Source of the DNA: a virus
Virus record (IMG/VR): IMGVR_UViG_3300027467_000489
Span: 1-31,826 of that record
DNA: 31,826 nt
Strand: one strand, 5' to 3'
Shown: positions 3,631 to 23,249 of the stretch, piece after piece
How the letters are laid out: every line of letters begins with the position of its first letter
Numbering within the stretch: position 1 is the first letter of the stretch
Position numbers and translations under genes: made by a program
Notes under the pieces: generated by a model
Databases searched by the model: none
What the model saw: only the letters and a program-made list of their open reading frames with translations
Told to the model about the DNA's origin: nothing

Positions 3631-4086
3631 ATGAATTGGTATGATCGAGTTTCAAAGGATATTTCAAATATTCCAGATGCTGTGGCTTATTATGAAGCCC
3701 AATTAACTGAGGCAAAACAAGATGCCCGTATAGCGGGGAACATCGAGAAAGCGTCTGCGCAGATGCCCGGCATTGTTGAAAATCGATTTAATCAACTTCA
3801 AGAAATTGAAGCAATTTTAGAATACCTAAACATTGAACTTCGTCGGCTTCGTAGTCAACATTTTCGTAAGTATCTTGAAAACTATCAACGTAGCCTCTCC
3901 TCTAGAGATTGTGAAAAATTTGTAGAGGGCGAGGCCGACGTTGTAGACTTTGAAAAAATTATCAATGACTTTGCCCTACTTAGAAATAAGTGGTTGGGTA
4001 TTATCAAAGCATTAGATCAAAAACAATGGCATCTAAGCAACATTGTTAAACTACGTGTAGCTGGTTTAGAAGACGCTACTCTTTAA
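3631..4086 (+). CDS. UvsY-like recombination mediator (candidate)
   Basis: 151 residues, starting directly after the preceding stop codon with GAGG inside that gene's 3' end. T4 UvsY is a small helical protein of 137 residues that helps UvsX displace gp32. This one has a similar size and layout: an N-terminal segment, a long helix rich in Leu, Arg and Gln (about 52-90), a linker, and a last helical pair in which KALDQKQWHLSNIVKLR resembles the UvsY C-terminal pattern of aromatic, small helix and basic end. Its place directly downstream of uvsX supports the call. There is no enzyme motif. It could also be an unrelated coiled-coil phage protein. Confidence 0.5.
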   Translation: MNWYDRVSKDISNIPDAVAYYEAQLTEAKQDARIAGNIEKASAQMPGIVENRFNQLQEIEAILEYLNIELRRLRSQHFRKYLENYQRSLSSRDCEKFVEGEADVVDFEKIINDFALLRNKWLGIIKALDQKQWHLSNIVKLRVAGLEDATL

Positions 4087-4877
4087 AACCTCATACCAGG
4101 AAATACAGTTTTCTTAACCTGGTTATTATCGTGATCCATAGTTTTAAATAAATCAAATGGTAGATCTAATTGTTTGCATAGGTCTGCCATTGCTTTTGTG
4201 TCTTTAGGCAAACACATTCCTCCATACCCTCGCATTTCTGGTCCGCAGCTAAGATAATCAGGACTTGATGTTTTTCTTAATAAAAAAGTTTCTAATACTT
4301 TGTCGTAGTCTGAATTTAGTTTATCACAGACTTCGTACATAACGTTTGCAAATACTACTCGCAAAGCATTAAAAGTGTTTGAATAATACTTTAATATCTC
4401 TGCTTCAGTGGGCGTCATTCTAACTGTATTCTTAGGAAGCCAAGAATGTGCTTCACAGACCTTGTGCCAGGACCTGTCTGTATAACATCCTACTGCTAGT
4501 ACATCGTGATTTCTTACAAAATCTTCTAGGGCAGATCGTTCTCTTAAAAATTCAGGAACAAAGCAAATATCTTTATCATTATATTTTTCAATTATAGATT
4601 GTGTGGTTCCTGGCACCGATGTTGATTTAAGAGCGATCACACCCTGATATTTTAAATTTTTTAAATTAGATATTGTTTGATGCACAATTGACAAATCGCA
4701 TTCGCCATTTTCACCCGACGGTGTTGGCACACAAACAAATACAATTTCAGTATCCAATACACTATCGATAGTTGTATTAAATTTAGGATCGTGTTTAGTT
4801 ACATCGTGTCCTAACATCTTAAATCCTTCACCAACAGCACTACCTACTGCTCCCCAACCAATAATTCCTATTTTCAT
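4083..4877 (-). CDS. UDP-glucose/GDP-mannose dehydrogenase family protein, short form
   Basis: 264 residues. The family oxidises the C6 of an NDP-hexose to the uronic acid with two NAD+. Visible parts are the Rossmann motif GIIGWGAVG (4-12), VPEFLRE (108-114), the central helix with Lys163 and Asn167 in ILKYYSNTFN, and the catalytic Cys222 in GYGGMCLPKD (217-226). Members are usually 390-450 residues; this one stops soon after the catalytic loop and lacks the C-terminal NDP-binding domain. It may therefore act on another substrate or need a partner. Its stop overlaps that of the UvsY-like gene in antiparallel, and its start overlaps the epimerase gene by 4 bases. Confidence 0.85.
   Translation of the reverse strand: MKIGIIGWGAVGSAVGEGFKMLGHDVTKHDPKFNTTIDSVLDTEIVFVCVPTPSGENGECDLSIVHQTISNLKNLKYQGVIALKSTSVPGTTQSIIEKYNDKDICFVPEFLRERSALEDFVRNHDVLAVGCYTDRSWHKVCEAHSWLPKNTVRMTPTEAEILKYYSNTFNALRVVFANVMYEVCDKLNSDYDKVLETFLLRKTSSPDYLSCGPEMRGYGGMCLPKDTKAMADLCKQLDLPFDLFKTMDHDNNQVKKTVFPGMRF
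4095..4123. terminator. Inverted repeat at the convergent ends of the uvsY-like and dehydrogenase genes
   Basis: ACCAGG (4095-4100) and CCTGGT (4118-4123) flank a loop that can pair further (AAA with TTT). It lies just past the two overlapping convergent stop codons, inside the 3' end of the minus-strand gene. It is a possible terminator for the + strand transcript, followed by TTATTATC; weak. Confidence 0.3.
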
Positions 4878-5731
4878 ATTAAGCTCTCAACAGTTTTCTT
4901 TAATCCGTCTTTCAATGATGTATATTCTGTAAATCCGGTTAATTTTTTCATCAGGGTAGTATCGGGGCAACGTCTTTTTGCACTACCTTTTGGACCTGGA
5001 AGTATTTCTAATTTCTCCGGATCTACTCCCATTATGTCTAAAATAATTCTTGCTACTTCAGCAATTTCATTTTCTTCTTGTCTGCCTACGTTAACTATAT
5101 AATTTTTATTATTTGTCACTAGTCTATGAGTTATTTCAACAGCATCGTCGATATAACAAAAACTTCTTGTATCATTGCCTTTGATATAATACTCACCTTT
5201 GGCAACACGTTCAACAAATTCGCTGATGAAATGATCTACCTGACCAGGACCGTAGATATTAAAGTATCTAATAATTAACCAATCTAATCCAGAATTAGCA
5301 ACTAAGTTTTCTCCTAGTGCTTTTGGTAAACTATAGCTCCAGCGAGGATTGATCACATCTTCAAACATCACAGGAACTGATTCATCAGTGGGAACTGGAT
5401 ATAGTCCTTTATCAATAGCACCATTAAAAATTTCACAAGTGCTTGTAAAAACAAATTTAGTATCTGTACCTTTATATCTATTAATTAAATTAAATGTTGG
5501 TAAAGTATTATTAAATGCAACTTCAGTTGGTTTTTCGTAGAACAGTTTGGTTCCATTGGTCGCGGCCATATGAACAACGACATCACAATTTGGAGAAGAA
5601 TTTGTTATGTCTGGTAAACAAAGGTCTTGGCCTTCTCTTTTATCAAATACTACGGTTTCGTGTTTATCTTTAATTAAATTATAATAATGGCTACCAATAA
5701 ATCCTCTATGGCCTGTAAGTAATATTTTCAT
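4874..5731 (-). CDS. NAD-dependent epimerase/dehydratase (extended SDR), nucleotide-sugar type
   Basis: 285 residues. Extended SDR enzymes change NDP-sugars by epimerisation, dehydration or decarboxylation. It has the NAD motif GHRGFIG (7-13), an HMAA strand (54-57), the active-site Thr/Ser in TSTCEIF (96-102), the catalytic YSLPK pair Tyr133/Lys137, and RYFNIYGPGQ (155-164), typical of GalE, RmlB and UDP-glucuronate decarboxylase relatives. TRSFCYIDDAV also fits. It is followed by the sugar dehydrogenase through a 4-base ATGA overlap, so the two probably act in order on one NDP-sugar. The dehydrogenase-decarboxylase pairing is suggestive of UDP-pentose production but not proven. Confidence 0.88.
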   Translation of the reverse strand: MKILLTGHRGFIGSHYYNLIKDKHETVVFDKREGQDLCLPDITNSSPNCDVVVHMAATNGTKLFYEKPTEVAFNNTLPTFNLINRYKGTDTKFVFTSTCEIFNGAIDKGLYPVPTDESVPVMFEDVINPRWSYSLPKALGENLVANSGLDWLIIRYFNIYGPGQVDHFISEFVERVAKGEYYIKGNDTRSFCYIDDAVEITHRLVTNNKNYIVNVGRQEENEIAEVARIILDIMGVDPEKLEILPGPKGSAKRRCPDTTLMKKLTGFTEYTSLKDGLKKTVESLI

Positions 5732-5742
5732 AGAAATATTTA

Positions 5743-5770
5743 TCGACTAAATATGAGCAGTTAATAGAAT
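5743..5770 (+). promoter_or_regulatory. Possible promoter for the glycosyltransferase operon
   Basis: TCGACT at 5743-5748, a 16-base spacer and TAGAAT at 5765-5770, in the 48-base gap between divergent genes. The boxes are weaker than the other promoters of the window. The ATG follows 9 bases after the -10, leaving almost no leader. Confidence 0.3.
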
Positions 5771-5779
5771 TGGACTACA

Positions 5780-6520
5780 ATGCGATCTTTTAGAGTAGTG
5801 ACTACACAACATAAACCTTACTATGACCTTATCGGTAAGGAATGTATTCAATCCTTTTTGAAATATTGGCCTAAAGAGGTTTCAATCGAATTATGGGCAG
5901 AAAATTTTGAACCCGACATAACAGACCCTAGATTAATAATTAAAGATTTTAATAAAATAAATCCTAGATTTGAAAACTTTAAACAATTAATGTTTTCGTC
6001 AACAACAAATGACAAAGTATTATCTAAGAAAACATTTTGGCTAAAAGGACACGTAGTTTTAACAGCTCTTGAAACTTTTGATTCCGATGTGTTTATATGG
6101 TTAGACAGTGATGTAATAACTCATAATTATGTTACCATTGAATATTTGAATTCTTTAATTCCAGAAGACACATTAGCTGTTGATGTTCCTGCAGGAGGAA
6201 AAGGTCGTGATAAAGAAGCAGAAACAGGATTTTTTGGATTAAATCTAAAAATGAAAGAATCAAAATCTGTTATCGATTACTATAGAGAATATCATACAAC
6301 ACTAAAAATGTTAGATACACCTAGATATATGGAAACATCCGTATGGTGGTCGGCTATAAAAAATTCAGGTGCAAAAGCTAATCATTTAAAAACATCTAAG
6401 GATCATTTGATGCCGTTTATGTATACTGAATTAGCTCAATATATGCGTCATTGGGTAGCACAAAAAAATAAGGCTAATTATTCTAAAGGCAGCAGAGAAA
6501 AAACTCAGGAAGAACAATGA
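5780..6520 (+). CDS. GT-A-like glycosyltransferase, paralogue 1
   Basis: 246 residues. The N-terminus MRSFRVVTTQ with a following helix, and FIWLDSDVITH with a DxD-type DSD at 109-111, fit a metal-dependent GT-A-like fold binding an NDP-sugar. GFFGLNLK after a loop is the usual acceptor-side strand. Related sequences in the window share the order: an N-terminal TTF/TSF strand, a W(P/K) motif near residue 30, then (I/V)W(I/L/M)D(S/A)D. It opens an eight-gene + strand run, divergent from the epimerase. Donor and acceptor are unknown. The basic, Gln/Glu-rich C-terminal tail has no known role. Confidence 0.8.
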   Translation: MRSFRVVTTQHKPYYDLIGKECIQSFLKYWPKEVSIELWAENFEPDITDPRLIIKDFNKINPRFENFKQLMFSSTTNDKVLSKKTFWLKGHVVLTALETFDSDVFIWLDSDVITHNYVTIEYLNSLIPEDTLAVDVPAGGKGRDKEAETGFFGLNLKMKESKSVIDYYREYHTTLKMLDTPRYMETSVWWSAIKNSGAKANHLKTSKDHLMPFMYTELAQYMRHWVAQKNKANYSKGSREKTQEEQ

Positions 6521-7095
6521 AATCAACAGCCCAAGCATATCAAGATTTATTCGTATATTCTTTATTCGGTAATAATGGAACATACATTGAAGTTGGTGCT
6601 CATAAACCAATAAAAAACAGTAACACTTATAATTTAGAAGTAACGTGCGGCTGGAAAGGATTTGGCATAGAATTCAATGATTCTTTAAAAGAGTTTTGGG
6701 AAAAATCTCCTGAAAGAAAAAATAAAATTTATTGGGAAGATGCATTGACATTTAATTACATCAATGCATTAACAGAAAATCTTTTACCAACACACATAAA
6801 TTATTTGTCTTGTGATATAGAACCTCCAGAAAATACATTTAATGCTCTTAAGAATATTGTTGGTCAAGGAATTACTTTTGATATAATTACATTTGAACAC
6901 GATTTATATAATTCAACAGTTGACTATAATTTAATTGCTACTGAGTTTTTATTAAACAACGGGTATAAAGTAGCAGTTACCGATGTATATTATAAAAAAG
7001 AAGAAAATTTATTCGAAACATGGTTTTTAAAAGACAACATAGAATTTAAAACTTGTTCGTTTAATGAATGGAAAGAAAGAACAAATTTGTTATGA
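6517..7095 (+). CDS. FkbM-type SAM-dependent methyltransferase
   Basis: 192 residues, start overlapping the preceding stop as ATGA. FkbM-family enzymes O-methylate sugars or small molecules and are common in polysaccharide clusters. The N-terminal AQAYQDLFVYSLFG, then the SAM-binding YIEVGAHKP (23-31), GFGIEFN (48-54) and the post-motif LSCDIEPPE (97-105) match the family layout; the Asp at position 100 takes the usual place after strand 4. It probably methylates a sugar made or transferred by its neighbours. The target is not visible from sequence. Confidence 0.83.
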   Translation: MKSTAQAYQDLFVYSLFGNNGTYIEVGAHKPIKNSNTYNLEVTCGWKGFGIEFNDSLKEFWEKSPERKNKIYWEDALTFNYINALTENLLPTHINYLSCDIEPPENTFNALKNIVGQGITFDIITFEHDLYNSTVDYNLIATEFLLNNGYKVAVTDVYYKKEENLFETWFLKDNIEFKTCSFNEWKERTNLL

Positions 7096-7853
7096 AAAAA
7101 ATTGTTTTAATTACCGGAGGCTTTGATCCTCTACATTCTGGTCATATTGCTTATTTTAAAGCAGCAAAGGCATTGGGTGATATTTTAGTTGTAGGCGTAA
7201 ATTCTGACGCTTGGCTAACACGCAAAAAAGGTGCTCCTTTTATGCCTTATATGGAACGTGCATCAATTGTACGGAATATAGTTGGTGTAGATTTTGTTAT
7301 AGACTTTAATGACAGTGACGGTAGTGCTAAACACGCCATACAAATGGTGCGTCAAAGTTATCCTCAAGAACGTATTATTTTTGCCAACGGTGGAGATAGA
7401 ACCAAAGAAAATATTCCCGAAATGGACATCAAAGACGACAACCTAGAATTTGTGTTTGGTGTTGGCGGAGAAGATAAAAAGAATTCTAGTTCTTGGATTT
7501 TACAGGAATGGAAAGCACCTAAGACTGAACGTCAATGGGGTTACTATCGTGTTCTGCACGAAGTTCCTGGAATGAAAGTTAAGGAACTAACAGTTAATCC
7601 AGGTTGCAAATTATCAATGCAAAGACATAAGTATCGTTCAGAATATTGGATAGTGAGTGAAGGTAGAGCCGATGTTAACAAAATGATGGACAGCGGTTAC
7701 TCGTTGCCGACTGCTAGATTAGAATTGCACGACGAAGAAGATATTCCAGTCGGACAATGGCACCAATTAACAAACCCTTACGATGTGCCTTGTAGAATTG
7801 TAGAAATTCAATACGGTGAGCGTTGCGAAGAAGAGGACATAGAAAGAAAATGA
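7092..7853 (+). CDS. Cytidylyltransferase fused to a mannose-6-phosphate-isomerase-type cupin
   Basis: 253 residues from the ATG at 7092, which overlaps the previous stop as ATGA; a longer upstream start is less likely. The N-terminal domain carries GGFDPLHSGH (9-18), GGDRT (100-104) and an SSSWIL end (132-137), as in TagD/RfaE-type nucleotidyltransferases that join CMP or AMP to a phospho-sugar or polyol. The C-terminal domain (about 150-245) is a cupin with VNPGCKLSMQRHKYRSEYW and GQWHQL, close to the type II mannose-6-phosphate isomerase pattern (His179, Glu184, His224). ManC-type enzymes also join a nucleotidyltransferase to such a cupin, but with a different first domain. Likely role: making an activated sugar for the cassette. 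Confidence 0.87.
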   Translation: MKKIVLITGGFDPLHSGHIAYFKAAKALGDILVVGVNSDAWLTRKKGAPFMPYMERASIVRNIVGVDFVIDFNDSDGSAKHAIQMVRQSYPQERIIFANGGDRTKENIPEMDIKDDNLEFVFGVGGEDKKNSSSWILQEWKAPKTERQWGYYRVLHEVPGMKVKELTVNPGCKLSMQRHKYRSEYWIVSEGRADVNKMMDSGYSLPTARLELHDEEDIPVGQWHQLTNPYDVPCRIVEIQYGERCEEEDIERK

Positions 7854-8530
7854 TTAGAATATTCATTGGGTACGATCCTCGTGAAGCCGTGGCGTTTCAC
7901 GTGTGTTCGAACAGTATTATTAGACAGGCTAGTTGCCCTGTTAGTATTACTCCCCTGGCGTTGAATACATTCAATGAGTACAAAGAAACACACAGCGATG
8001 GTAGTAATCAATTTATCTACTCTAGATTCTTAACACCTGCCCTATCGGACTTTATGGGCTGGGCTATATTTGTCGACGGCGATATGATTTTAAGAGATGA
8101 TATTTTAAAATTATGGAATCTAAGAGACGAGTCAAAGGCAGTAATGGTAGTCAAACACGACTATAAAACTAAGATGACAGAAAAATATCTAGGCAGTAAG
8201 AACGAAGACTATCCTAGAAAAAATTGGTCTAGTGTTATCTTATGGAATTGCAGCCATCCTAAAAATAGAATCTTAACACCTAACTTCATTGAAAAATCTA
8301 CAGGTGCACAGCTACATAGATTTACTTGGTTAGAAGACAATGACATTGGCGAATTGCCTAAAGAATGGAACTGGCTGGATGTCGAATATGATTATAACCC
8401 AGATGCAAAATTAGTTCATTATACGTTAGGTACACCTTGCTTCCACGAATTTGCACATCAAGGAAGTTTTTCAGGCGAATGGCATCTTGAAAGAATTTAT
8501 GCAGATTGGTGTCAACAAAGGAATCTATGA
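7850..8530 (+). CDS. GT8-like glycosyltransferase
   Basis: 226 residues from the ATG at 7850, in an ATGA overlap with the fusion gene. IRIFIGYDPREAVAFHVCSNSI at the start, the FVDGDM segment with DGD at 76-78, and a late HYTLGTPCF (190-198) are laid out like GT8-family transferases, in which DxD and a C-terminal His hold the metal and NDP-sugar. It belongs to a different subgroup from its GT-A-like neighbours. Donor and acceptor are unknown. GT8 members often act on lipopolysaccharide cores or protein-bound glycans, which fits an envelope or virion glycan but does not prove it. Confidence 0.84.
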   Translation: MIRIFIGYDPREAVAFHVCSNSIIRQASCPVSITPLALNTFNEYKETHSDGSNQFIYSRFLTPALSDFMGWAIFVDGDMILRDDILKLWNLRDESKAVMVVKHDYKTKMTEKYLGSKNEDYPRKNWSSVILWNCSHPKNRILTPNFIEKSTGAQLHRFTWLEDNDIGELPKEWNWLDVEYDYNPDAKLVHYTLGTPCFHEFAHQGSFSGEWHLERIYADWCQQRNL

Positions 8531-9357
8531 ACAATTGGTTATTTTTAAGCAAAGACGGCCAGGACGAATATATTAATATGTTTGCTATCGGCACCGGAGG
8601 AAGAGTGGTGTCGACTGAAGATTTTATCTTTGAAGATTCCGAAGATCCTATTGTGATGAGAGGAATATTAAAAAAGAAAATAATTCAACAATGCTGGCGT
8701 GAACAACGAGATTTTTATTTTATTGACACTGGATATTTAGGAAATCAAAAAAGTCCTGTAAATCCAATGGGTTGGAAATACTATCATAGAATTGTAAAAA
8801 ACGATTTGCAATACGAAGGAGATATAATTCCTAGACCTAATGATAGATTTAAACAGTTAGCTATTCCGATTAGCGATTGGAAAAAAGGCGGAAGAAAAGT
8901 TTTAATTGCTGCACCCGATGAAAAACCTATGAGGTTCTACGGATTAGATCGAGAACAATGGTTGGAAGAAACTATAGAAACAATTAAGAAATATACCGAT
9001 AGACCGATTGTTGTTAGGGATAGAGTTAAGAGTAGATTAGATCGTGTAATTCATAATACACTAAAAGAAGCACTCGATGACGATGTTCATTGCCTAGTTA
9101 CTTTTAATAGTAATTCTGCAACTGAGTCAGTCCTACACGGAATACCAGCATTTATACTTGCTCCAAGCCATGCGGCTAGTCCAGTAACATTAAGAGACTT
9201 AAGCAAGATTGAAAATCCGTATTATGCAGACAAGGATAAAGTTTATGCTTGGGCTTGTCATCTAGCATATCTGCAATATCATAACAACGAACTTAGAGAT
9301 GGTTCTGCAAAAAAGATGTTAGAAGAAACATATGAGTTAATAAAGGAACATAGATGA
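8527..9357 (+). CDS. GT-B-like capsule-type glycosyltransferase, paralogue 1
   Basis: 276 residues from the ATG at 8527, ATGA overlap with the GT8-like gene. The C-terminal half has RPIVVRDRVKSR (159-170) and TFNSNSATESVLHGIPAF (192-209), in the style of KpsC/capsule-export transferases and other GT-B proteins, followed by a DLSKIENPYYADKD block. The same three-block order is present in the products at 10034 and 12933. In the other two paralogues the first block is RPHP, here RDRV, so the substrate site may differ. Role inferred: transfer of a sugar in the cassette's glycan. Confidence 0.72.
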   Translation: MNNWLFLSKDGQDEYINMFAIGTGGRVVSTEDFIFEDSEDPIVMRGILKKKIIQQCWREQRDFYFIDTGYLGNQKSPVNPMGWKYYHRIVKNDLQYEGDIIPRPNDRFKQLAIPISDWKKGGRKVLIAAPDEKPMRFYGLDREQWLEETIETIKKYTDRPIVVRDRVKSRLDRVIHNTLKEALDDDVHCLVTFNSNSATESVLHGIPAFILAPSHAASPVTLRDLSKIENPYYADKDKVYAWACHLAYLQYHNNELRDGSAKKMLEETYELIKEHR

Positions 9358-10037
9358 ACTTAAATTTTATTACCAGTCTTTCTAAAGAATATTGGGAAGG
9401 AACAGGAAAATTTTGTCTAAAGACTTGGAAAAATTTTCCAGGCACAGTGACAGTTTATATCGATCAACAAGAAGGTGACATAGCCTGGATCAATGAACTA
9501 CCATCATCCTTTGTTAAAAAATTAGTTCGTGTTCCTAATCTAAATTTAGAAGATAGAGATTCTACAAAAATTAGAAAATTCTGGGGTAAAGCCTGCGCCC
9601 AGATATCTGCAATGAGAGAACGAGGTAAAGATGAAAGAATAGTTTGGATAGATGCTGACGTTGAACAAACAGCATCCACTTTACCAGAATCTATTTTTTC
9701 TTTTAGTTTTATGGAACCAATTGCAATGTTAAACTCCGGTGACGGCGAAGACTGTTGGGAATCCGGCATAGTTGTTTTTAATCAAACTGCCGATAAGATC
9801 GATTTGGTTGTTAGAAAATATGAAAATATGTATCTAAATCAAGATAACTTGTTTAGTCTATGGAAACCTTACGATGCACAGGCATTAGGTGCTGTGGCAA
9901 TGGAAAGAGGATTTTTAAATTTATGCAAGAAAAAATGTCCTAATGCAGAAGCATTAGCTAATAGTCACTTTGCTCCATATTTTAAACATTGGATTAATAA
10001 AGATAATAAAAAATTATTAATTGAAAAGAATAAATGA
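9354..10037 (+). CDS. GT-A-like glycosyltransferase, paralogue 2
   Basis: 227 residues, ATGA overlap with the preceding gene. MNLNFITSLSKEYWEG at the start and RIVWIDADVEQT with DAD at 100-102 fit the GT-A-like group of this window. IVVFNQTADK and DAQALGAVAMERG take the places of the acceptor strand and a late loop. It lacks a clear C-terminal metal-binding His motif. Very AT-rich and Lys-rich, like its neighbours. Donor and acceptor unknown. Confidence 0.76.
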   Translation: MNLNFITSLSKEYWEGTGKFCLKTWKNFPGTVTVYIDQQEGDIAWINELPSSFVKKLVRVPNLNLEDRDSTKIRKFWGKACAQISAMRERGKDERIVWIDADVEQTASTLPESIFSFSFMEPIAMLNSGDGEDCWESGIVVFNQTADKIDLVVRKYENMYLNQDNLFSLWKPYDAQALGAVAMERGFLNLCKKKCPNAEALANSHFAPYFKHWINKDNKKLLIEKNK

Positions 10038-10966
10038 CAACAGTAGCGGTATACCACGGTTCTGTACCAAACAAAAAGAGCCAAGAAAAAATTGATCTTT
10101 TAAGATACTTCTCTGAAGGTGCTAGAAGAACAGGATCAATAGTCTACGACTATCTTGATCACTCTTATCGACCATCGGATGTGGCCATTATACAAGGTTG
10201 GGTCGCTCCCGGTCGGCCAACTGGTAAGCATTTACTCTTAAGAAATACTGTTATTCAACAACAACTTAAAAATAAAAGACACGTAATAGGTGTTGACAGC
10301 AATTTATTTCTTTATAAAAATAAAGAAAATCCTTTGCATTATCTCAGATACAGTTTTGATGGAATATTTCCTAATACAGGAATTTATTGTGATACGGAAA
10401 TTGATCCATTTCGATGGAAAAAAATTAGTCATAATTTAAAAATTCAACCTAAAGAGTGGAGAACTAACGGAGACCATATTTTGTTGTTGCTACAAAGAAA
10501 CGGCGGATGGAGTATGGGAAATCTTGATGTACAAGACTGGGCTAACGATGTTATAGCTCAGGTAAGACAATATTCCGATCGACACATAATTATACGACCA
10601 CATCCTGGAGATAAAGATGCTATAAATTATCTTAATCCTAGACTAGGTAGATGTAAAATTAAATTTTCTAAAAGAATCACTCTTAGCTATAATAAAAATT
10701 TAGAAGATGATTTAGTAGATTGTTGGGCAGCAATTAATTATAATTCAAGTCCTGCTGTAGGAGCAGCGATTGAAGGTGTTCCTATTTTTGTAATGGATCC
10801 TGCCCGTAGTCAGTGCGCAGAAATTGCTAATACTGATTTATCTCAAATTGAAAATCCACAAATGCCCTATAGAGACAGATGGCTTGAACGATTAGCCATG
10901 TTTCATTGGAATTTTGACGAACTAAGATCCGGCGAATGCTGGAGCCATATGAAAAAATTTATATGA
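10034..10966 (+). CDS. GT-B-like capsule-type glycosyltransferase, paralogue 2
   Basis: 310 residues, ATGA overlap. It contains HIIIRPHPGDK (184-194), INYNSSPAVGAAIEGVP (234-250) and a DLSQIENPQMPYRDRW block (268-283). These line up with the three blocks of the products at 8527 and 12933. RPHP and a Gly/Ser-rich loop before a GxP turn are typical for GT-B type capsule transferases. The first half has Rossmann-like stretches (VAVYHGS, DVAIIQGW, HVIGVDSN). Function inferred from family shape; substrate unknown. Confidence 0.74.
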   Translation: MTTVAVYHGSVPNKKSQEKIDLLRYFSEGARRTGSIVYDYLDHSYRPSDVAIIQGWVAPGRPTGKHLLLRNTVIQQQLKNKRHVIGVDSNLFLYKNKENPLHYLRYSFDGIFPNTGIYCDTEIDPFRWKKISHNLKIQPKEWRTNGDHILLLLQRNGGWSMGNLDVQDWANDVIAQVRQYSDRHIIIRPHPGDKDAINYLNPRLGRCKIKFSKRITLSYNKNLEDDLVDCWAAINYNSSPAVGAAIEGVPIFVMDPARSQCAEIANTDLSQIENPQMPYRDRWLERLAMFHWNFDELRSGECWSHMKKFI

Positions 10967-11712
10967 AAAAGATTTCTGTTATTACAAGTTTTAACGAAAA
11001 ATATTATGAGTTAATTGGCAAATATTGTGTTGCTACATTTTTAAAAAATTGGCCAACTGACATTAATTTAACCTGTTACGTGGAAGAAATGTCATTAACT
11101 CCCGATCCACGTATTATACAAATTCCTTTTACAGAACTTCCTGTTGAATATTTTGATTTGCAAAAAACAAAATTTAAACAAAGAGTAAAAACTTTTTCTA
11201 AAAAAGGTTATTCTGTAATTCACGCTATGGAAAACATAGATTGCGATCTATTAATATGGATTGATTCTGATGTATTAACACATACAGCGGTTCCTAGAGA
11301 ATTTTTAGAAAATTTATGTTCGTCTAAAGATCTAACTACGTTTATGGGTGTATGGCACGAAGCAAATGACAAAGAATATTTCAGTTGTGAATCAAGTTTT
11401 TTTGTTGTAAACAAAACTCATCAAAATTTTTCATTATTTTCAAAGAGATATCGTGAATATTATGATAATCGATTAACTGAGAATTTAAGAAGATTCTATG
11501 ACGGTGAAGTCCTTGGAGCAACTATTAAAGATTTAGAAAAATTAGGAGGTATGAATGAAATTAATCCTAACTTTCACAAAACTCCGATGCCAAGAACCAT
11601 ACTAAAAGATTATTTTACTCATTTTAAGGCAGGACTAAAAGAAGATGATGACCTTGATACGAGTATTGAAGAATTAATTGGCAATATTCAAACTGTTCCA
11701 GTTTGCCAATAA
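10963..11712 (+). CDS. GT-A-like glycosyltransferase, paralogue 3
   Basis: 249 residues from the ATG at 10963 (ATGA overlap); an in-frame start at 10936 inside the previous gene is less likely. MKKISVITSFNEKYYELIGKYC closely parallels the opening of the product at 5780, and LLIWIDSDVLTH carries DSD at 101-103. SSFFVVNKTHQNF is the acceptor-side strand. This is the nearest relative of paralogue 1 in the window, so the two may come from one duplication. It ends the + strand run and its last 25 bases overlap the 3' end of the minus-strand gene that follows. Confidence 0.8.
   Translation: MKKISVITSFNEKYYELIGKYCVATFLKNWPTDINLTCYVEEMSLTPDPRIIQIPFTELPVEYFDLQKTKFKQRVKTFSKKGYSVIHAMENIDCDLLIWIDSDVLTHTAVPREFLENLCSSKDLTTFMGVWHEANDKEYFSCESSFFVVNKTHQNFSLFSKRYREYYDNRLTENLRRFYDGEVLGATIKDLEKLGGMNEINPNFHKTPMPRTILKDYFTHFKAGLKEDDDLDTSIEELIGNIQTVPVCQ
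11678..11709. terminator. Hairpin at convergent glycosyltransferase ends
   Basis: CAAACTG (11689-11695) and CAGTTTG (11699-11705) form a perfect 7-bp stem with a 3-base loop; TTGG (11678-11681) and CCAA (11706-11709) can extend it across a bulge. It lies within the 25-base overlap of two convergent genes and is followed on the + strand by a pyrimidine-rich run. It could stop transcription in either direction. Confidence 0.4.
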
Positions 11713-12503
11713 CTTTCTTTTCTTCTAACCTTTAGATCTTGAGGCTTACTACGGCCTAGATCTTTTCTACCGCCTTTCAAATGGTCAAGATATGCTCCCC
11801 ATTCACTGTTAATCAGCGGATGACCTTCTCCAGTGATAAGATGGCTGCTCCAATCTAATTCATTTAAGGTTGAATTTCGTCGTACGACATCAAATACAAA
11901 ACTATCATGCCATTCTTCTAAGGTAAAAATTCCTAATTCTGCACAATCGTACATCCATTGAAATTTTTCTAAGAATTTTTGAACAGCAGGTGAACGCAAA
12001 TTCATTGCGTAAAGGCCACATTCACTAAATTTTCCTTTTCTTCCAAGAAAACACAAATCTTTGTCTGCCGGAATTAGACGTTGAATTGTTTCCATGGTAA
12101 TTGGACTATGACAAATGGTATCTGCGTCCATCCAAACTAAAATATCTGCGTCAGTTTCCTTAGCACAGTGAAAAATTGCATAGACTTTGTGGGCAAATCT
12201 AACAGCATCCCATTTAAAACCTTTGCCAGCATCTTTTCTTCGACTTCGAATAGGATCTGCTGATACATCGCCGTTAGCCTTGGGAACATTTTTCCACTTT
12301 TCTTTAAATTTCATAAGCTCTTCAACTTCTTCAAGGCGTTTTAATGTCACGTGATTGTGATTTCGTATTGCAGGATTACAAAGTTCTGGATAAATGTGAA
12401 GGGTGACCTCTTCTGGCCACTTTTCACAAAAACTATCTATCATTTTTTGGCCGTATTTTGCACGACCCGCATCATTAAAAGTTGTTACCACTGCATATTT
12501 CAT
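11688..12503 (-). CDS. GT-A-like glycosyltransferase, paralogue 4
   Basis: 271 residues from the ATG at 12503, chosen because it overlaps the upstream stop as ATGA; a start 15 bases earlier is possible. MKYAVVTTFNDAGRAKYGQKMIDSF and ILVWMDADTICH with DAD at 126-128 match the other GT-A-like members. A basic insertion (ADPIRSRRKDAGKGFKWDAVRF, in two parts) before the DAD segment is special to this copy. CGLYAMNLRS serves as acceptor strand. Co-transcribed behind the 132-aa gene on the minus strand. Confidence 0.8.
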   Translation of the reverse strand: MKYAVVTTFNDAGRAKYGQKMIDSFCEKWPEEVTLHIYPELCNPAIRNHNHVTLKRLEEVEELMKFKEKWKNVPKANGDVSADPIRSRRKDAGKGFKWDAVRFAHKVYAIFHCAKETDADILVWMDADTICHSPITMETIQRLIPADKDLCFLGRKGKFSECGLYAMNLRSPAVQKFLEKFQWMYDCAELGIFTLEEWHDSFVFDVVRRNSTLNELDWSSHLITGEGHPLINSEWGAYLDHLKGGRKDLGRSKPQDLKVRRKESYWQTGTV

Positions 12504-12898
12504 TTTCTTTTTTCCCAAACGTGAAATTTTTTATCAACCGAGGTGCATACCCAGCCTGTATTGTATAGAGCCTTCATTGTTTTTTTGTCTACTATAGAAT
12601 TTCCTTCGACTATTACAACAGATTTAAATCTTGTCCAAAAATTATTCAATTTTTCCAGCCTATCTATTTTATCTAGGTTAAAGTATATGGCCTTTATTTC
12701 ATATAATGTTTCAATATAGTCAAAATTTTCTCTATAAATTAATTTTTTTGATTTTAAAGATCTATCTTCTGCTTCTATTATAAAAGTTGTGTTATGTAAA
12801 GACACTATGTCCTGCAACATTCCAAAACCGTCACCAATTACCAAAGCATTTTCTGCTCTGCCAATAATTTTTTTGATCTTTTTTTCAAACGAGGCCAT
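12500..12898 (-). CDS. Short Rossmann-like protein, degenerate methyltransferase type
   Basis: 132 residues. ALVIGDGFGML (about 18-28) looks like the glycine-rich loop of a class I SAM fold, followed by an FIIEAED strand (38-44) ending in acidic residues, and later VVIVEG (93-98). The length is below that of a full methyltransferase and no catalytic motif is evident, so it may be a reduced or inactive relative. It starts 34 bases from a divergent + strand gene and is coupled to the glycosyltransferase downstream by ATGA. Confidence 0.6.
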   Translation of the reverse strand: MASFEKKIKKIIGRAENALVIGDGFGMLQDIVSLHNTTFIIEAEDRSLKSKKLIYRENFDYIETLYEIKAIYFNLDKIDRLEKLNNFWTRFKSVVIVEGNSIVDKKTMKALYNTGWVCTSVDKKFHVWEKRK

Positions 12899-12932
12899 AA
12901 ATTAATTAAATACTCTGATATTTATTACTCCT

Positions 12933-13757
12933 ATGCGCTTCAAACTTTATCGTGAATACGGTGCCTTAAACAGCGCACCAATTTTTAATGCAGTCGAACA
13001 AGGACTGCGTTCACTTGGCCACGAAATTGTTAATAAAGACGAAGACATACCGGTAATTTGGTCAGTTTTATGGTCAGGCAGGATGAAAAACAATCAAGCC
13101 ATATATCATAATGCTATAAAAAATAAAAAATCTGTTTTAATTATAGAAGTTGGAAATTTAAAAAGGAACGAGACCTGGAGAATTTCTTTAAACCATATAA
13201 ACGGATTAGGCGTTTTTAATAATCTTACAAATTTAGACTCCTCGAGACCAGGAAAATTAGGTATAGAATTAAAATCTCCTCCTAACAAAACAAGAGGAGA
13301 GATACTAGTGGCTTGCCAACATCAAGAAAGTCTTCAATGGGAAGGTATGCCAACTATGGCAGAATGGTGTAAGGATACGATTTCTAAAATTAGACGGCAC
13401 TCACAGCGCAGGATTATAGTTAGACCACATCCAAGGTCTCCATTTCCGTTTAGTGTGCCTAATGTAATATTAGAGAGGCCTAGACATATTCCAAACACCT
13501 ATGATAATTTTGATATTTTTTACAACTATCATTGCGTGATTAATTATAATGCAGGACCGTCTGTTCAAGCTCCTATAAATGGGATTCCCGTGCTCTGTGA
13601 TTCTTCTAGCCTAGCTGGCGAATTAAGCATTAAATGGGAAAATCTTGAAAATCCCACATTGCCAGATAGAGAAGAATGGTTTCTCAAACTCTGCCATACC
13701 GAATGGACTGTTGACGAAATAAGTCAAGGTATTCCTTTGGCAAGATTGTTCGGTTGA
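12933..13757 (+). CDS. GT-B-like capsule-type glycosyltransferase, paralogue 3
   Basis: 274 residues. RRIIVRPHPR (159-168), VINYNAGPSVQAPINGIPV (202-220) and a KWENLENPTLPDREEW block (234-249) are the same three blocks as in the products at 8527 and 10034. The end (CHTEWTVDEISQGIPL) has close matches in the end of the 10034 product (FHWNFDELRSG). No Shine-Dalgarno is visible. It is the last gene of the sugar cassette, and the promoter for the next transcript overlaps its stop codon. From memory, similar proteins occur in T4-like marine phages; the substrate is unknown. Confidence 0.75.
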   Translation: MRFKLYREYGALNSAPIFNAVEQGLRSLGHEIVNKDEDIPVIWSVLWSGRMKNNQAIYHNAIKNKKSVLIIEVGNLKRNETWRISLNHINGLGVFNNLTNLDSSRPGKLGIELKSPPNKTRGEILVACQHQESLQWEGMPTMAEWCKDTISKIRRHSQRRIIVRPHPRSPFPFSVPNVILERPRHIPNTYDNFDIFYNYHCVINYNAGPSVQAPINGIPVLCDSSSLAGELSIKWENLENPTLPDREEWFLKLCHTEWTVDEISQGIPLARLFG

Positions 13758-13788: not shown

Positions 13789-14976
13789 ATGTTAAGCTCT
13801 GTGTATGCCGAAGACATTTTTCTTCGTTTTTATACTCTTGTTCAATCTGGTCAACTACACGTTCAGCACCAGGACTTCTCGCCTATTCTTAGTTTTCACG
13901 AGAAAATTTCCAATGACAGCGAACTAACAAAAAATCAAGCTAACTACATTTTAAAAATATTAGAAAAATACAAAAATGTATCGGCATTATTGGGTTTTGA
14001 TTACAAAGACGCATTGTTAACAGCGCAATGGCAAAGACCTTTTAGAGTACTAGATCTTACAAAAAAAATCTATGTAGAAAACAAAGATGGATCTTTAGAA
14101 ATTTGTCTAAAATTTCCATATCAATTGAAAAAAGAGTTTGACGATGAAATAAATGTTAACTTGCCTAATTCAACTAGAGTCAGTCATTGGGATCAAGAAG
14201 ACAAAGTTCGACGTTTAAAATTTTACGAATACAACTTGATCAGTCTATATGAATTTGCTAATAAACACAACTTTGTAATTGACGACAGTTTTATGAGTGT
14301 GTTGTCAGATGTTGAAGAAATATGGCAAAATTCAGACAACATTATTCCCTGTTCGGAAATAATTAATTCAAAAGTTGAATTAGTAAATGCTGATCCAGAA
14401 ACCGAAGAATGGTGGTCAAATACTCGCACCGAATCATTAAACAATGATTTATTACTGGCTAAGAGTATGGGATTTCCATTGAAAAAAAATCCGGTAAGTT
14501 TAGTAGAAAAAATAGCATCTTCGTCTGAAAATTTATTCTGGATTAAAAATGTTCAAGATTTCTTTAACATTAGCACTACCGTTAAAGGCAGAGTCTGTAT
14601 AATTTTAGATAGAACATCTGACACACTAAAATGGTTACAAGAATTTGTAAAAGCAGCTGATCAAAATAGTGTTCCTAGAGAAGAAATTAAGGTATGTTTT
14701 AGAGATACTAAAGATTCAAAGACCGGTCTTAATGACTGGATTAAACTAGCAGGTGTTGGCGGCAAAGTGGATACTGGAAAATTTTTAATATTTGAATCTA
14801 AGCCAGCTAAATGGTTGTTTAAAGATAACCTTGATGTTAAAATGTTAGTAACAAATAACATTTATCCGCCAACAAGTGTTATTACAAAAGATTGGTTTGA
14901 TTCTCATCCTTGTGTAATTTATCTAGGTGCAGCAAAACCAAGCACTCATAAAGGAAGAAAGATTGTCGAATTGTAA
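13789..14976 (+). CDS. Unknown 395-aa protein upstream of uvsW
   Basis: 395 residues, starting six bases after a strong -10 box. No Walker, nuclease or zinc motif is evident. The N-terminal half is helical and charged. The C-terminal part (about 260-390) shows alternating strands and helices (GRVCIILDRT, EIKVCFRD, KFLIFESKPAKWLF, VKMLVTNN, CVIYLGA), reminiscent of a Rossmann or degenerate helicase domain. Its 3' end overlaps uvsW, so the two proteins are made together and may act together. From memory, a protein of this kind sits next to uvsW in some marine T4-like phages; its role is not known to me. Confidence 0.8.
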   Translation: MLSSVYAEDIFLRFYTLVQSGQLHVQHQDFSPILSFHEKISNDSELTKNQANYILKILEKYKNVSALLGFDYKDALLTAQWQRPFRVLDLTKKIYVENKDGSLEICLKFPYQLKKEFDDEINVNLPNSTRVSHWDQEDKVRRLKFYEYNLISLYEFANKHNFVIDDSFMSVLSDVEEIWQNSDNIIPCSEIINSKVELVNADPETEEWWSNTRTESLNNDLLLAKSMGFPLKKNPVSLVEKIASSSENLFWIKNVQDFFNISTTVKGRVCIILDRTSDTLKWLQEFVKAADQNSVPREEIKVCFRDTKDSKTGLNDWIKLAGVGGKVDTGKFLIFESKPAKWLFKDNLDVKMLVTNNIYPPTSVITKDWFDSHPCVIYLGAAKPSTHKGRKIVEL

Positions 14977-16417
14977 ACTTACAATTAGAGATGAAGTTAA
15001 CATTAAAGTCGATGGACTTAGTGTTGAAACACGAAGAAAAATTGTCAACAAATTAAAATTTGACCTTCCCTATGCAAGGCATATGCCAGCCTACAAACTA
15101 GGTCGCTGGGACGGAACTAAAACATATTTTAGCATTGGTGGCAACGGTTATCTTGCACACTTAGATGTTATTCTTCCTATAATAGATGAAGCAGGATACG
15201 ACATTGAAGTTGAAGATTTAAGATCTTCTCATGATTTTAAATTCGATCCAGTAACTGAAAACTATTGGGCAGACAAAGGAAAAACTTGGCCTAAAGGTCA
15301 TCCTGCCGAAGGACAGCCAATTGTTTTACGTGATTATCAATATGACGTTGTTAATAAATTTTTAGAAAATCCACAAGCTCTACAGGAGGTAGCAACAGGT
15401 GCCGGCAAGACAATTACTACTGCGACGTTATCGCATCTTTGTGAACCGTATGGCCGTACGATGGTTATTGTTCCGAACAAATCGCTTGTTGTCCAAACTG
15501 AAGAAGACTACAAAAATTTAGGATTAGATGTAGGAGTTTATTTTGGTGATAGAAAAGAACTTAACAGAACGCACACTATCTGTACTTGGCAAAGTCTTAA
15601 CGTCTTGGATAAAAAGAGTTATGACGAAGAGAGTCTTTCGTTAGCAGAGTTTTGTGAAGGAGTAGTAGCAATCATTGTTGACGAAGTCCATCAGGCTAAG
15701 GCAGATGTATTAACAAAACTTCTTACACAAAACTTTAGAAATTGTGCCATTCGTTGGGGATTAACTGGAACTGTCCCTAAGGAAAATTGGGAATTTCAAG
15801 GTATCCTTGCTAGCATTGGTCCAGTTATTAATAACGTATCTGCACACGATCTACAACAAAAAGGAGTGTTGGCAAATCTTAATATTAATATTGTTCAAAC
15901 TAACGATGTTGAGGTGTTTAGAAGTTATCAAGAAGAGTATACTTGGTTAGTAACTGATCCAAAAAGATTAACTTGGATAGCAAATAAAATTAAAGAATTA
16001 AGTCAATCAGGCAACACCCTAGTCCTCATCAATCGCATTGATACTGGAAATAAACTAATGGAGCAATTGCCAGATGCGGTGTTTATCAACGGTAGCGTTA
16101 AGTTAGATGATCGAAAGGAAGAATACGATGAAGTACGGACTAGCAATGAAAAGATTATTGTGGCGACTTATGGTGTGGCCGCTGTGGGTATTAATATCCC
16201 TAGGATTTTTAATTTGGTTCTTTTGGAACCCGGAAAGAGCTTTGTTAGGGTTATACAATCTATTGGGCGAGGTATTAGAAAAGCAGAAGACAAAGACCAC
16301 GTTGAAATCTGGGATATAACTAGTACCTGCAAATATGCAAAACGACATTTAACAGAACGTAAAAAATACTATAAGGAGGCGAAATACCCCTTTACAATTA
16401 TTAAGGTGAATACATGA
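14963..16417 (+). CDS. uvsW: UvsW, ATP-dependent DNA helicase
   Basis: 484 residues. In T4, UvsW unwinds branched DNA and R-loops and helps shift replication from origin to recombination mode. Motifs from the SF2 family are clear: ATGAGKT (144-150), DEVH (240-243), GLTGT (266-270), VATYGVAAVGI (400-410) and QSIGRGIRK (432-440). The N-terminal YKLGRWDGT (44-52) resembles the T4 UvsW start region RYGNWDGR. I chose the TTG at 14963 because AAGGAAG lies at 14951-14957; the upstream ATG at 14927 would add 12 residues inside the preceding gene. Overlaps the next gene by ATGA. Confidence 0.92.
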   Translation: MSNCKLTIRDEVNIKVDGLSVETRRKIVNKLKFDLPYARHMPAYKLGRWDGTKTYFSIGGNGYLAHLDVILPIIDEAGYDIEVEDLRSSHDFKFDPVTENYWADKGKTWPKGHPAEGQPIVLRDYQYDVVNKFLENPQALQEVATGAGKTITTATLSHLCEPYGRTMVIVPNKSLVVQTEEDYKNLGLDVGVYFGDRKELNRTHTICTWQSLNVLDKKSYDEESLSLAEFCEGVVAIIVDEVHQAKADVLTKLLTQNFRNCAIRWGLTGTVPKENWEFQGILASIGPVINNVSAHDLQQKGVLANLNINIVQTNDVEVFRSYQEEYTWLVTDPKRLTWIANKIKELSQSGNTLVLINRIDTGNKLMEQLPDAVFINGSVKLDDRKEEYDEVRTSNEKIIVATYGVAAVGINIPRIFNLVLLEPGKSFVRVIQSIGRGIRKAEDKDHVEIWDITSTCKYAKRHLTERKKYYKEAKYPFTIIKVNT

Positions 16418-16920
16418 AAATTTTAACATTAAACAATCAGGCATTTGATTTAAATGACCTGCCCGACGAAGTAGATGAAGACACTAGGTTTAGTGTATTA
16501 GATAACAGTAATCCGCAAGAACCTGATTTCTTTTTTATGCCGTTGATATTCTTAGAATCATTTAACAGTCCTGCTATTTTATTGAATATAGGAGGACACG
16601 AAATTCAAATGCCGTTGGATTGGTGTATGGTAGTAGGAGATAAAGATTGCGGTATGGATCCCGAAGTTCTTCCGTTAACAAGTATTAATGAACGAGGATT
16701 TGACGCATTAGTATTCAATCCTATTAAAGGGTTTAGAGCAGAATTTATGCCAATTGAAATTGTTAATATCTTTCAAGATGTTCGATGGTATTTTCCAAAA
16801 ATGAAAAACGGACAGTTATTAACAGTTCCGTTAACTGACGGTGTTAATCCTCCTTGTGTATATTTTGTAAAAGAAGTTAGCCGTCAAAGTGAAGTGTTAC
16901 AACTACATAAGTTATTATGA
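16414..16920 (+). CDS. Conserved-type phage protein, unknown function
   Basis: 168 residues, ATGA overlap with uvsW and AAGGTG just before. The sequence is acidic at the start (DLPDEVDEDTRF) and mostly beta-like after it, with LPLTSINERGFDALVFNP in the middle, then DVRWYFPKMKNGQLLTVPL. From memory, similar proteins with the LPLTSIN.RGF segment recur in T4-like phages without assigned function. No catalytic motif is visible. It starts a run of four small overlapping genes. Confidence 0.8.
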   Translation: MKILTLNNQAFDLNDLPDEVDEDTRFSVLDNSNPQEPDFFFMPLIFLESFNSPAILLNIGGHEIQMPLDWCMVVGDKDCGMDPEVLPLTSINERGFDALVFNPIKGFRAEFMPIEIVNIFQDVRWYFPKMKNGQLLTVPLTDGVNPPCVYFVKEVSRQSEVLQLHKLL

Positions 16921-17135
16921 TGTGGGACGACGAGGCGTTTAAGCGGAGATGTATTGGCTGGGTTGATAAGTTTGTTATAATCCCTCGCAAGTGTCACTAC
17001 ACAAGTAAATATTTGTGGTTGAAACGTGCTTATCTTGGCACAGCAATGATAACAGGTCCGGGTGAACCTGTATTTGAATATAGATGGTGTGATAAAGATC
17101 AATATCTATTTCTTAAAATTAAAGGTATCGTATGA
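16917..17135 (+). CDS. Small conserved-type phage protein, unknown function
   Basis: 72 residues, ATGA overlaps at both ends. The core is KRRCIGWVDKFVIIPRKCHYTSK, in two parts, then KRAYLGTAMITGPGEPVFEYRW. Small proteins with the WVD.....PR.C and TGPG.PV patterns are, from memory, widespread in tailed phages but uncharacterised. Cys12 and Cys26 with a nearby Cys58 could bind a metal, but the spacing is not a known zinc motif. Confidence 0.78.
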   Translation: MMWDDEAFKRRCIGWVDKFVIIPRKCHYTSKYLWLKRAYLGTAMITGPGEPVFEYRWCDKDQYLFLKIKGIV

Positions 17136-17485
17136 AAGCTGGAAAAGTTTGGGGTGTTACAGAATTATTAGAAGCCAACGGTGTATTAGAGTTTCATCGC
17201 ATTGAAGCCAAAGCAGGCGGAGTCTGTTCTAAACATAAACACAAATATAAGTGGAACGGATTCTTTGTTGAAAAAGGAAAGATGATTATTCGTGTATGGA
17301 AGAATAATTATGATCTAGTAGATGAAACGCTATTAGAGGCTGGACAATATACTAAAGTTGCTCCTGGCGAATATCATCAGTTTGAAGCAATTGAAGACTG
17401 TGTTGCTTTTGAATTATATTGGGCAGAATTTGATCACGACGACATTGAAAGAGAAACTGTGGGGTACAATAATGGGATCGCTTAA
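17132..17485 (+). CDS. Cupin-fold protein
   Basis: 117 residues, ATGA overlap with the preceding gene. SKHKHKYKWNGFFVEKGKM (about 33-51) and LEAGQYTKVAPGEYHQFEA (about 67-85) are the two cupin boxes, with His34, His36 and a late His in EYHQF as likely metal ligands. It resembles the cupin half of the fusion at 7092, which also has an H.Y.....V..GKA/M core, but is a stand-alone domain. Role unknown; sugar-phosphate isomerase or sugar-binding protein are possibilities. It could belong functionally to the sugar cassette despite lying 3.4 kb away. Confidence 0.78.
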   Translation: MKAGKVWGVTELLEANGVLEFHRIEAKAGGVCSKHKHKYKWNGFFVEKGKMIIRVWKNNYDLVDETLLEAGQYTKVAPGEYHQFEAIEDCVAFELYWAEFDHDDIERETVGYNNGIA

Positions 17486-18901: not shown

Positions 18902-19086
18902 AAGACAATGAAGAATATATTTCAAGAGATGATCTTGATATTGAAGTTATGAGCACCTCTGATGAAGAGCCCTGCGTTTATGTTAAATTTTCAAATTTTG
19001 CAGACGCTGAAGATGCAGAAGAATATGCAGATTTTTTAGCAGAAACATTACCTCTATTGTTATTTGAAACTACTAGGATGCAATAA
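18898..19086 (+). CDS. Small acidic phage protein, unknown function
   Basis: 62 residues, ATGA overlap with the zinc-finger gene. Very acidic (RDDLDIEVMSTSDEE, then NFADAEDAEEYADFLAETL), with a beta strand (CVYVKFSNF) between. The next gene starts one base after its stop (TAATATG), so translation is likely coupled. No family recognised. Confidence 0.72.
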   Translation: MKDNEEYISRDDLDIEVMSTSDEEPCVYVKFSNFADAEDAEEYADFLAETLPLLLFETTRMQ

Positions 19087-19087
19087 T

Positions 19088-20034: not shown

Positions 20035-20036
20035 TC

Positions 20037-20044: not shown

Positions 20045-20062
20045 TGCTAAAGGTCCGTAAAA

Positions 20063-21148: not shown

Positions 21149-21154
21149 ATATCT

Positions 21155-23243: not shown

Positions 23244-23249
23244 AGTATT

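Follow-up and report, generated by a model that had tools for sequence, protein, structure and literature searches.

The window analysed here, viral record IMGVR_UViG_3300027467_000489 at its full length of 31,826 nucleotides (nt), carried a cassette of sugar and glycan genes inside a T4-type recombination module. The cassette consisted of 13 open reading frames (ORFs) at positions 4083-13757 and was bounded by uvsY and by a gene for a protein of 395 amino acids (aa), g395, that was located next to uvsW. Homologues of UvsX, UvsY, UvsW and gp32 were found in the window. The closest UvsX proteins (63-70% identity, proteins compared) came from Vibrio phage 2.275.O, XbC2, CBB, Phosso, Atu_ph07 and GAP32, which were T4-type jumbo phages with records of 349-490 kb. 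Judged from these proteins, the window is a fragment of a jumbo T4-type phage. A previous interpretation made from the letters alone (the sequence-only reading) had proposed a multi-gene sugar cassette at this place, and the gene content confirmed it in part. The best explanation is a modular glycosylation island that changes quickly and occupies a single site, from uvsY to g395-uvsW, in jumbo T4-type phages of a large uncultivated lineage.

Gene content of the cassette

The genes formed four strand groups. Namely, an epimerase-type SDR gene and a dehydrogenase gene (sdr-ugd) were on the minus strand. The plus strand carried eight genes in the order A1, a small protein, a nucleotidyltransferase-cupin fusion (NTase-cupin), a GT8 glycosyltransferase (GT), B1, A2, B2 and A3. 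They were followed by a 131-aa gene with A4 on the minus strand, and by B3 on the plus strand, where A and B stand for GT-A and GT-B transferases. The likely starts were revised for NTase-cupin (7092), gt8 (7850), B1 (8527), A3 (10963) and A4 (12503, minus strand). With these starts, all seven junctions from A1 to A3 were 4-bp ATGA overlaps, and the sdr/ugd and 131-aa gene/A4 junctions were likewise 4-bp ATGA overlaps.

All three sugar-making genes had Pfam matches above the cut-off. The extended SDR of the sequence-only reading was recovered as an epimerase/dehydratase-type enzyme (4874..5731, minus; PF01370, 1.2e-31). Its nucleoside diphosphate (NDP)-sugar dehydrogenase belonged to the UDPG/GDP-mannose dehydrogenase family (ugd; 4083..4877, minus) but was not a complete enzyme, since the 264-aa protein matched the N-terminal and central domains only (PF03721, 2.3e-19; PF00984, 4.6e-20) and had no match to the C-terminal domain. 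Against the nucleotide-sugar dehydrogenase model TIGR03026 it scored 158 bits, under the cut-off of 189.8. A homologue of this short dehydrogenase was located directly upstream of NTase-cupin in five gammaproteobacterial contigs.

The first core gene, NTase-cupin (7092..7853, plus), encoded an HxGH nucleotidyltransferase fused to a type II mannose-6-phosphate-isomerase cupin (PF01467, 1.1e-12; PF01050, 2.2e-22), as had been proposed for a cytidylyltransferase-cupin fusion. The HxGH and cupin residues were invariant in 18 sequences. The cupin half scored 79.8 bits (cut-off 23.6), and its invariant Q185, H187, E192 and H232 are presumably the metal ligands. The match to rfaE_dom_II, the heptose-1-phosphate adenylyltransferase model TIGR02199, reached E 1.4e-21 and 76.9 bits, which was under the curated cut-off of 181.5. 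Full-length relatives with at most 54% identity were present in SAR86, SAR11 and other bacteria. In the NTase-cupin tree, from which one misframed NTase row (L020) had been dropped as well as from the alignment, several long branches were unsure. The best tree needed 4 changes between phage and bacteria (3-4 in bootstrap replicates), and the well-supported branches forced only 1. A single origin would thus be compatible with the tree, as would several changes.

Relatives of this protein were also observed outside any cassette. Fusions without other cassette genes were found at L115:10025-10810 and L157:10016-10777, in both cases with a B-family DNA polymerase gene a few kb away. The former was also near genes for a GTP cyclohydrolase, a thymidine kinase and two SPASM/radical-SAM proteins. 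The cyanophage S-SSM6a had a stand-alone NTase (L266:9019-9483), 55% identical to the NTase domain, between the gp43 DNA polymerase and UvsX genes, and no annotated glycosyltransferase was beside it. The link between the NTase and the replication module may therefore predate the cassette.

For the two small proteins, the labels of the sequence-only reading were not supported. The protein encoded at 6517..7095 (plus) had been called an FkbM methyltransferase, yet it had no Pfam match even at E<=1; genuine Pfam FkbM domains were present in two sister cassettes (L034 and L017). It was 27-28% identical to two sequences, namely a bacterial protein encoded beside NTase-cupin, and a segment of an ORF in which NTase-cupin was also located. 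In the first case (L191) the homologue was the next gene upstream of NTase-cupin, as in the window. The second case was a 727-aa ORF from Bacteroidetes (L234:6486-8669) with the homologue and most of NTase-cupin; it could be an assembly fault because the first 39 NTase-cupin residues were unmatched. The supposed degenerate methyltransferase at 12500..12898 (minus) had no Pfam match either and turned out to be a conserved protein of about 131 aa, with G22, F39 and W128 invariant in 17 sequences.

Eight of the 13 genes encoded transferases. The five GT-A-like transferases proposed earlier were supported by an alignment in which both Asp residues of the DxD motif were kept in all five proteins, GT8 included. 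The core GT8 (7850..8530, plus) was above the Pfam cut-off (PF01501, 27.7 bits; cut-off 24.3). The other four were paralogues by BLASTP within the cassette: the variable A1 (5780..6520, plus; 2e-28 to A3 and 2e-15 to A4), A2 (9354..10037, plus) and A3 (10963..11712, plus), and the core A4 (11688..12503, minus). A2 matched A1 at just 5e-4, and its match to A4 was non-significant. In Pfam, A4 was under the cut-off for GT2, A2 and A3 were weak, and A1 matched no GT family proper. The AlphaFold (AF2) model of A4 (pLDDT 94.4) had a GT6/GT8-like GT-A fold, with alpha-1,3-galactosyltransferase and glycogenin as the best folds in the PDB.

The three GT-B-like transferases, all core genes, were also confirmed as paralogues by BLASTP within the cassette: B1 (8527..9357, plus), of which relatives often had several copies, B2 (10034..10966, plus) and B3 (12933..13757, plus). 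Among them B3 was modelled, so that a sugar-transfer fold was confirmed for both proteins with a structure prediction, B3 and A4. The B3 model (AF2; pLDDT 94.7) had a Kdo-transferase-type GT-B fold. In Foldseek, all 28 PDB matches with E<=0.001 were retaining beta-Kdo transferases, with modest TM-scores of 0.36-0.53. In the structure comparison, 15 entries of the KpsC/WbbB/KrkA group gave Z 9.6-13.6 (13.6 over 226 residues for KpsC-N), and the best entry outside the group gave 8.8. This group is marked by a modified GT-B fold with a reduced and displaced N-terminal Rossmann domain, and the B3 model matched it. Moreover, a profile of the GT-B family found WbbB from sequence alone (E 2.4e-5). 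From the model and the profile, the GT-B proteins are predicted to share the KpsC/WbbB fold, which we state without claiming family membership.

The catalytic residues differed from those of this group. Retaining beta-Kdo transferases are marked by a QXXXD motif with the Asp nucleophile (PMC10148158, PMC9587256, PMC12887879), and the position of the Glu general base is described as varying between their families (PMC12887879). The Asp was found in 1 of 28 B3 sequences (L067) and in none of 33 B2 sequences; at Q+4 there was Ser in 25/28 B3 and Gly in 24/33 B2, and in the other rows different residues were picked up by the pattern. The (K/R)XHP motif for binding cytidine monophosphate (CMP) was present as R-x-H-P in 33/33 B2 and 28/28 B3 and in only 1/83 B1, where the QXXXD motif could not be placed. 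A cassette GT-B protein of this family with both QXXXD and HP kept (L067:5100-5984) might be a true retaining Kdo-type transferase.

A variable block at one site

Left of the cassette was uvsY (3631..4086, plus; PHROG UvsY-like mediator, E 1.9e-17), whose last 4 bp at the 3' end ran over the stop of the dehydrogenase gene. On the right were g395 (13789..14976, plus) and uvsW (14927..16417). The protein encoded by g395 had no Pfam and no PHROG match. It was just 34-62% identical in 25 loci where UvsX was at 86-96%. In four loci with UvsX 82-86% identical to that of the window (L058, L059, L065 and L066), uvsY was directly followed by a g395 homologue. Because g395 was thus also present at empty sites, we considered it as the flank and the cassette as the variable part.

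A site was called empty when none of the 13 proteins was found by BLASTP at E<=1e-4. Among 37 loci with both uvsY and uvsW, cassette homologues lay between them in 26 and were absent in 11, where near-copies were counted and many filled loci had been fetched via a cassette gene. In five isolates, no homologue of the 13 proteins was detected between uvsY and uvsW. Four otherwise empty sites (L003, L004, L047 and L076) held 2.7-6.4 kb of other genes. The best 80 loci of a UvsX scan included 39 that extended at least 3 kb beyond uvsY, and 28 of these 39 had a core cassette match. This number became 27 when L065, with a 32% match beyond uvsW, was left out, and 26 when the lone 34% match in L086 was removed too. 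Loci L087-L163 had been found via the NTase-cupin gene, and the presence of the cassette there was no measure of its frequency. Many loci were near-copies: L087-L092 were the window's own phage at 100%, L152, L154, L156, L158 and L159 looked like one phage, and L012 and L098 were one contig.

Filled intervals mostly had the order NTase-cupin, GT8, two to five B1/B2-type genes, A4, often the 131-aa gene, and B3. Around this core, genes for FkbM, GT25, methyltransferases, a CAP59-type mannosyltransferase, a DegT aminotransferase, GDP-mannose dehydratase, a Polysacc_synt_2 enzyme and a pyruvyl transferase came and went in sister cassettes. The ugd-sdr pair was left of NTase-cupin in the window and in L137, directly after uvsY in L032, and right of B2 in L027 and L103. 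In 6 of 109 loci, NTase-cupin and the recombination genes were on different strands; four of these six were in the NTase-cupin tree and formed one clade (100/98). In L125, where both flanks were visible, the block was inverted between uvsW and uvsY. The gene order in relatives therefore showed that the cassette genes were not scattered, because they were present or absent at one site and could even be inverted as a block.

The cassette proteins diverged much faster than UvsW or UvsY. Among 73 loci with UvsX at least 85% identical, the median identity to the window was 48% for B2 (n=44), 32% for the 131-aa protein (n=25) and 85% for UvsW (n=21); the medians leave out L001-L006 and L087-L092. 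The cassette DNA had no nucleotide match in phage records. A 335-kb phage contig with the cassette (PBPT01000016.1, L179) was part of a Neomarinimicrobiota metagenome-assembled genome (MAG), and it may be either a mis-binned phage or a hint to the host; a second contig of this MAG (C77) repeated its GT-B genes.

Base composition was less informative. The sequence-only reading had called the cassette AT-rich and possibly acquired as a block. The cassette was indeed lower in G+C (34.1%) than the left flank (40.2%) and positions 14977-31826 (39.3%), but the low G+C ran past the cassette end because the flanking gene at 13789-14976 had 32.0%. In 12 of 14 filled sister loci the cassette was also below uvsX-uvsY, by 0.5-4 points. 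Given the flank and such small sister differences, we rejected base composition as a sign of a recent foreign block, for which it is weak evidence.

Late-type promoter motifs

The cassette had its own late-type promoter motifs. In the window, GATAAATA (5737..5744, minus) was 5 nt before the SDR start, and the variant ACTAAATA (5746..5753, plus) was 26 nt before the A1 start. The divergent spacer between the 131-aa gene and B3 held AATAAATA (12919..12926, minus) and ATTAAATA (12905..12912, plus), each 20 nt before the start of its gene. The exact TATAAATA was rejected as evidence: its 3 sites in the window compared with 3.53 expected by chance. The argument is therefore carried by the looser motif NWTAAATA tied to gene starts.

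This tie was strong across relatives. An ATAAATA-type motif ended 4-6 nt before the ATG of NTase-cupin in 60 of 80 distinct upstream regions. Anywhere in the 60 nt it was found in 61/80, compared with 6/80 on the opposite strand and 4.0/80 expected from mononucleotide shuffles (largest 10). At the same distance from the ATG it was absent from gp32 (0/67), uvsX (0/101) and uvsY (0/101), that is 0/269 together, and from gt8 (0/60) and B2 (0/38). The motif-free NTase-cupin upstreams included loci, the window among them, where other cassette genes run into NTase-cupin. In the 131-aa family the motif was within 60 nt in all 18 upstream regions, with a copy on the other strand in 17 of them, as expected for a divergent spacer; B3 had it in 18 of 29. 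Of the 18 spacers between these two genes two were incomplete, and the two divergent copies were back to back in 12 of the 16 full ones and further apart in 4.

The same motifs were present at some virion genes. Two long contigs, one of them from the window's phage, had the motif upstream of the second tail tube gene, again with a leader of 5 nt. Variants were found before sheath and terminase genes. CTAAATA was upstream of the tail sheath gene in both contigs, and the terminase gene had the motif in one of them. Several replication and nucleotide genes of these contigs had TATAAT-like sequences upstream. TAAATA was within 60 nt of 6 of 16 virion genes, labelled by homology, and of 0 of 15 replication genes (P 0.011); the 16 exclude one of 17 that had first been noticed through the motif. 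In contig G006, 10 of 17 non-cassette genes with the motif were scanned against PHROGs, and they comprised five tail, head or connector genes, one 2OG oxygenase, four of no known function and no replication gene. The late-type motif was also observed at a 2OG-Fe(II) oxygenase gene (L252:12748-13371) in the window's phage.

A comparable signal has been described in related phages. In CBB, ATAAATA upstream of structural genes, noted for GAP32 too, was expected to be a late promoter (PMC5259590), and for cyanophages NATAAATA is given (PMC2984593). Judged by its promoter motifs, the cassette probably belongs to the late regulon and is probably transcribed together with the head and tail genes despite its replication-gene surroundings.

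Target of the glycans and relation to known systems

The sequence-only reading had left three targets for the sugars: the virion, the host envelope and the phage DNA. We favour the virion, and we consider it about an even bet (probability roughly 0.5) that the cassette glycosylates new virion proteins of the head, tail or fibre late in infection. The presence of late-type motifs in the middle of a recombination module suggests a product that is required during particle assembly. Together with the lack of a multi-pass membrane protein in the cassette and of a detected hydroxymethylase-family gene in the cassette-bearing contigs searched, these motifs favour the virion over DNA. None of the window's cassette proteins had a membrane-type hydrophobic segment. 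Two or more hydrophobic segments were found in no sampled member of the 13 families and in 0 of 165 unclassified cassette ORFs of at least 100 aa from 102 loci, compared with 10 in a major facilitator superfamily (MFS) control. Such presumably cytoplasmic enzymes without export proteins would suit a cytoplasmic acceptor. Moreover, homologous GTs of CcrColossus had tail genes on one side and lysis genes on the other, and those of the podovirus ct7QV12 were next to the terminase gene.

In the proposed mechanism, the NTase-cupin fusion would isomerise a sugar phosphate and link a nucleotide to a sugar-1-phosphate. Tailoring of the activated sugars may be the task of the short dehydrogenase, the SDR and the small accessory proteins. 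The transferases, namely GT8, the GT-A paralogues and the GT-B paralogues with the KpsC/WbbB fold, would add sugars one by one to a target in the host cytoplasm, and the turnover of variable genes would change the particle glycan between related phages.

Several observations weigh against this. In the pelagiphage Mosig, homologues were beside RuvC and ribonucleotide reductase genes, away from virion genes. In both long contigs, the major capsid, head completion, head-tail adaptor and first tail tube genes had no motif. The virion-gene test was small, its 16 virion rows included a Rad50-annotated gene before the capsid gene, and the strict motif gave 3/16 virion against 0/15 replication genes (P 0.12). 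The window's main plus-strand operon (A1-A3) had just the variant ACTAAATA. Finally, the enzyme set (Kdo-transferase fold, RfaE-like NTase, dehydrogenase and GT8, with GT25 and pyruvyl transferase in sisters) was typical of surface polysaccharide work.

The last point leads to the main rival, which we regard as a tentative but serious alternative: by altering the core or O-chain of the lipopolysaccharide (LPS), the cassette may remodel the host envelope and thereby block adsorption by other phages. The LPS core is accessible to soluble GTs at the inner membrane, and because of this late expression would be compatible with an envelope target as well. The GT-B fold is that of capsule and O-antigen Kdo transferases, and relatives of the RfaE-like NTase-cupin in SAR86 and other bacteria were in some cases beside dehydrogenase genes. 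This reading has also been published for similar clusters in P-SSM2, pelagimyophages and other jumbo phages (PMC7824862, PMC7029224, PMC2984593). However, late-type motifs fit particle assembly better than early exclusion, and no multi-pass flippase or polymerase was present among the cassette ORFs tested.

Glycosylation of phage DNA, as in T4 but with more sugars, appears improbable. It would fit the location beside uvsX in the replication and recombination module, and phage GTs are reported to modify DNA (PMC12619734). However, the thymidylate synthase family (PF00303) was found in 1 of 12 long contigs (G003) and in 0 of 7 cassette-bearing contigs, most of which were fragments. This family includes hydroxymethylases. 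The NTase-cupin locus of G003 (L115) had no other cassette gene. In the MAG that contained L179, the only PF00303 match was on another contig (C55) and none was on the 335-kb phage contig (C57). A search for the TET/JBP family gave no match, but its controls were silent too, and it carries no weight. In T4-type phages, late genes are normally transcribed after DNA synthesis has begun, which also speaks against DNA as the target. CBB is reported to lack genes for glucosylated hydroxymethylcytosine (PMC5259590). It is very improbable that the cassette makes a free product, be it a secondary metabolite or a small glycoconjugate, through which the host cell is altered. Such a product has been proposed for the second gene cluster of S-SSM6a (PMC7824862), and an NTase homologue stands alone between DNA polymerase and UvsX in that phage, but the cassette has eight transferase genes, and no halogenase or carbamoyltransferase was found in it.

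Returning to the virion, a bolder extension is conceivable but doubtful. Namely, the GT-B paralogues may be a new family with the Kdo-transferase fold, no covalent nucleophile and therefore another mechanism, perhaps inverting as in sialyltransferases with the HP motif. They would build a hypervariable acidic CMP-sugar virion coat in a widespread jumbo-phage lineage, as a phage counterpart of bacterial serotypes. Such a family would give natural variants for asking how the Kdo-transferase fold works without the nucleophile. The usual interpretation of sugar clusters in phages is a change of the host surface or of DNA. The motifs found here are conserved in dozens of contigs and indicate the late regulon, so that the particle becomes a sensible place to search for glycans. 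If virion glycosylation is correct, it would be common and fast-evolving in a large group of uncultivated jumbo phages, and a gene block at one site might let the glycan type be predicted from sequence.

No publication describing this cassette was among the papers listed by the literature searches, which covered few subscription journals; related systems are known. Clusters with epimerases, cupins, HxGH nucleotidyltransferases and GTs, together with their polymorphism, have been described in jumbo phages (PMC7824862). The clusters of P-SSM2-type jumbo cyanophages are alike in that epimerases, a cupin isomerase, an HxGH nucleotidyltransferase and several GTs occur together and are polymorphic among relatives (PMC7824862, PMC2984593). 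Unlike them, the cassette occupied the uvsY-uvsW site, had the NTase and cupin fused, and had a GT-B core with the KpsC/WbbB fold. Its own late-type motifs were a further feature, compared with the cyanophage clusters from the cassette side only. The host recognition cluster of pelagimyophages is also a hypervariable island with glycosyltransferases, and these phages are reported to have rfaE, UDP-glucose dehydrogenase and GT8 genes. That cluster is described in the structural region with tail fibres (PMC7029224), whereas the cassette was in the recombination module and 0 of its 13 genes encoded a tail fibre.

Among enzymes, WbbB (GT99), KpsC (GT107) and KrkA (GT140) shared the fold over nearly the whole B3 model and the (K/R)XHP motif with B2 and B3. 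In contrast to them, most B3 members had Ser and most B2 members Gly in place of the QXXXD Asp, and B1 was without HP too. Phage-coded GTs have been linked to structural-protein glycans in the mycobacteriophages Che8 and Rita (as cited in PMC11256854 and PMC12619734). These are unrelated phages, whereas the cassette combined eight GTs with sugar-making genes and its virion target is suggested by sequence. Thus, compared with known clusters, the cassette was new in its different site, its fused NTase-cupin, its Kdo-fold GTs without the nucleophile and its late-type promoter motifs.

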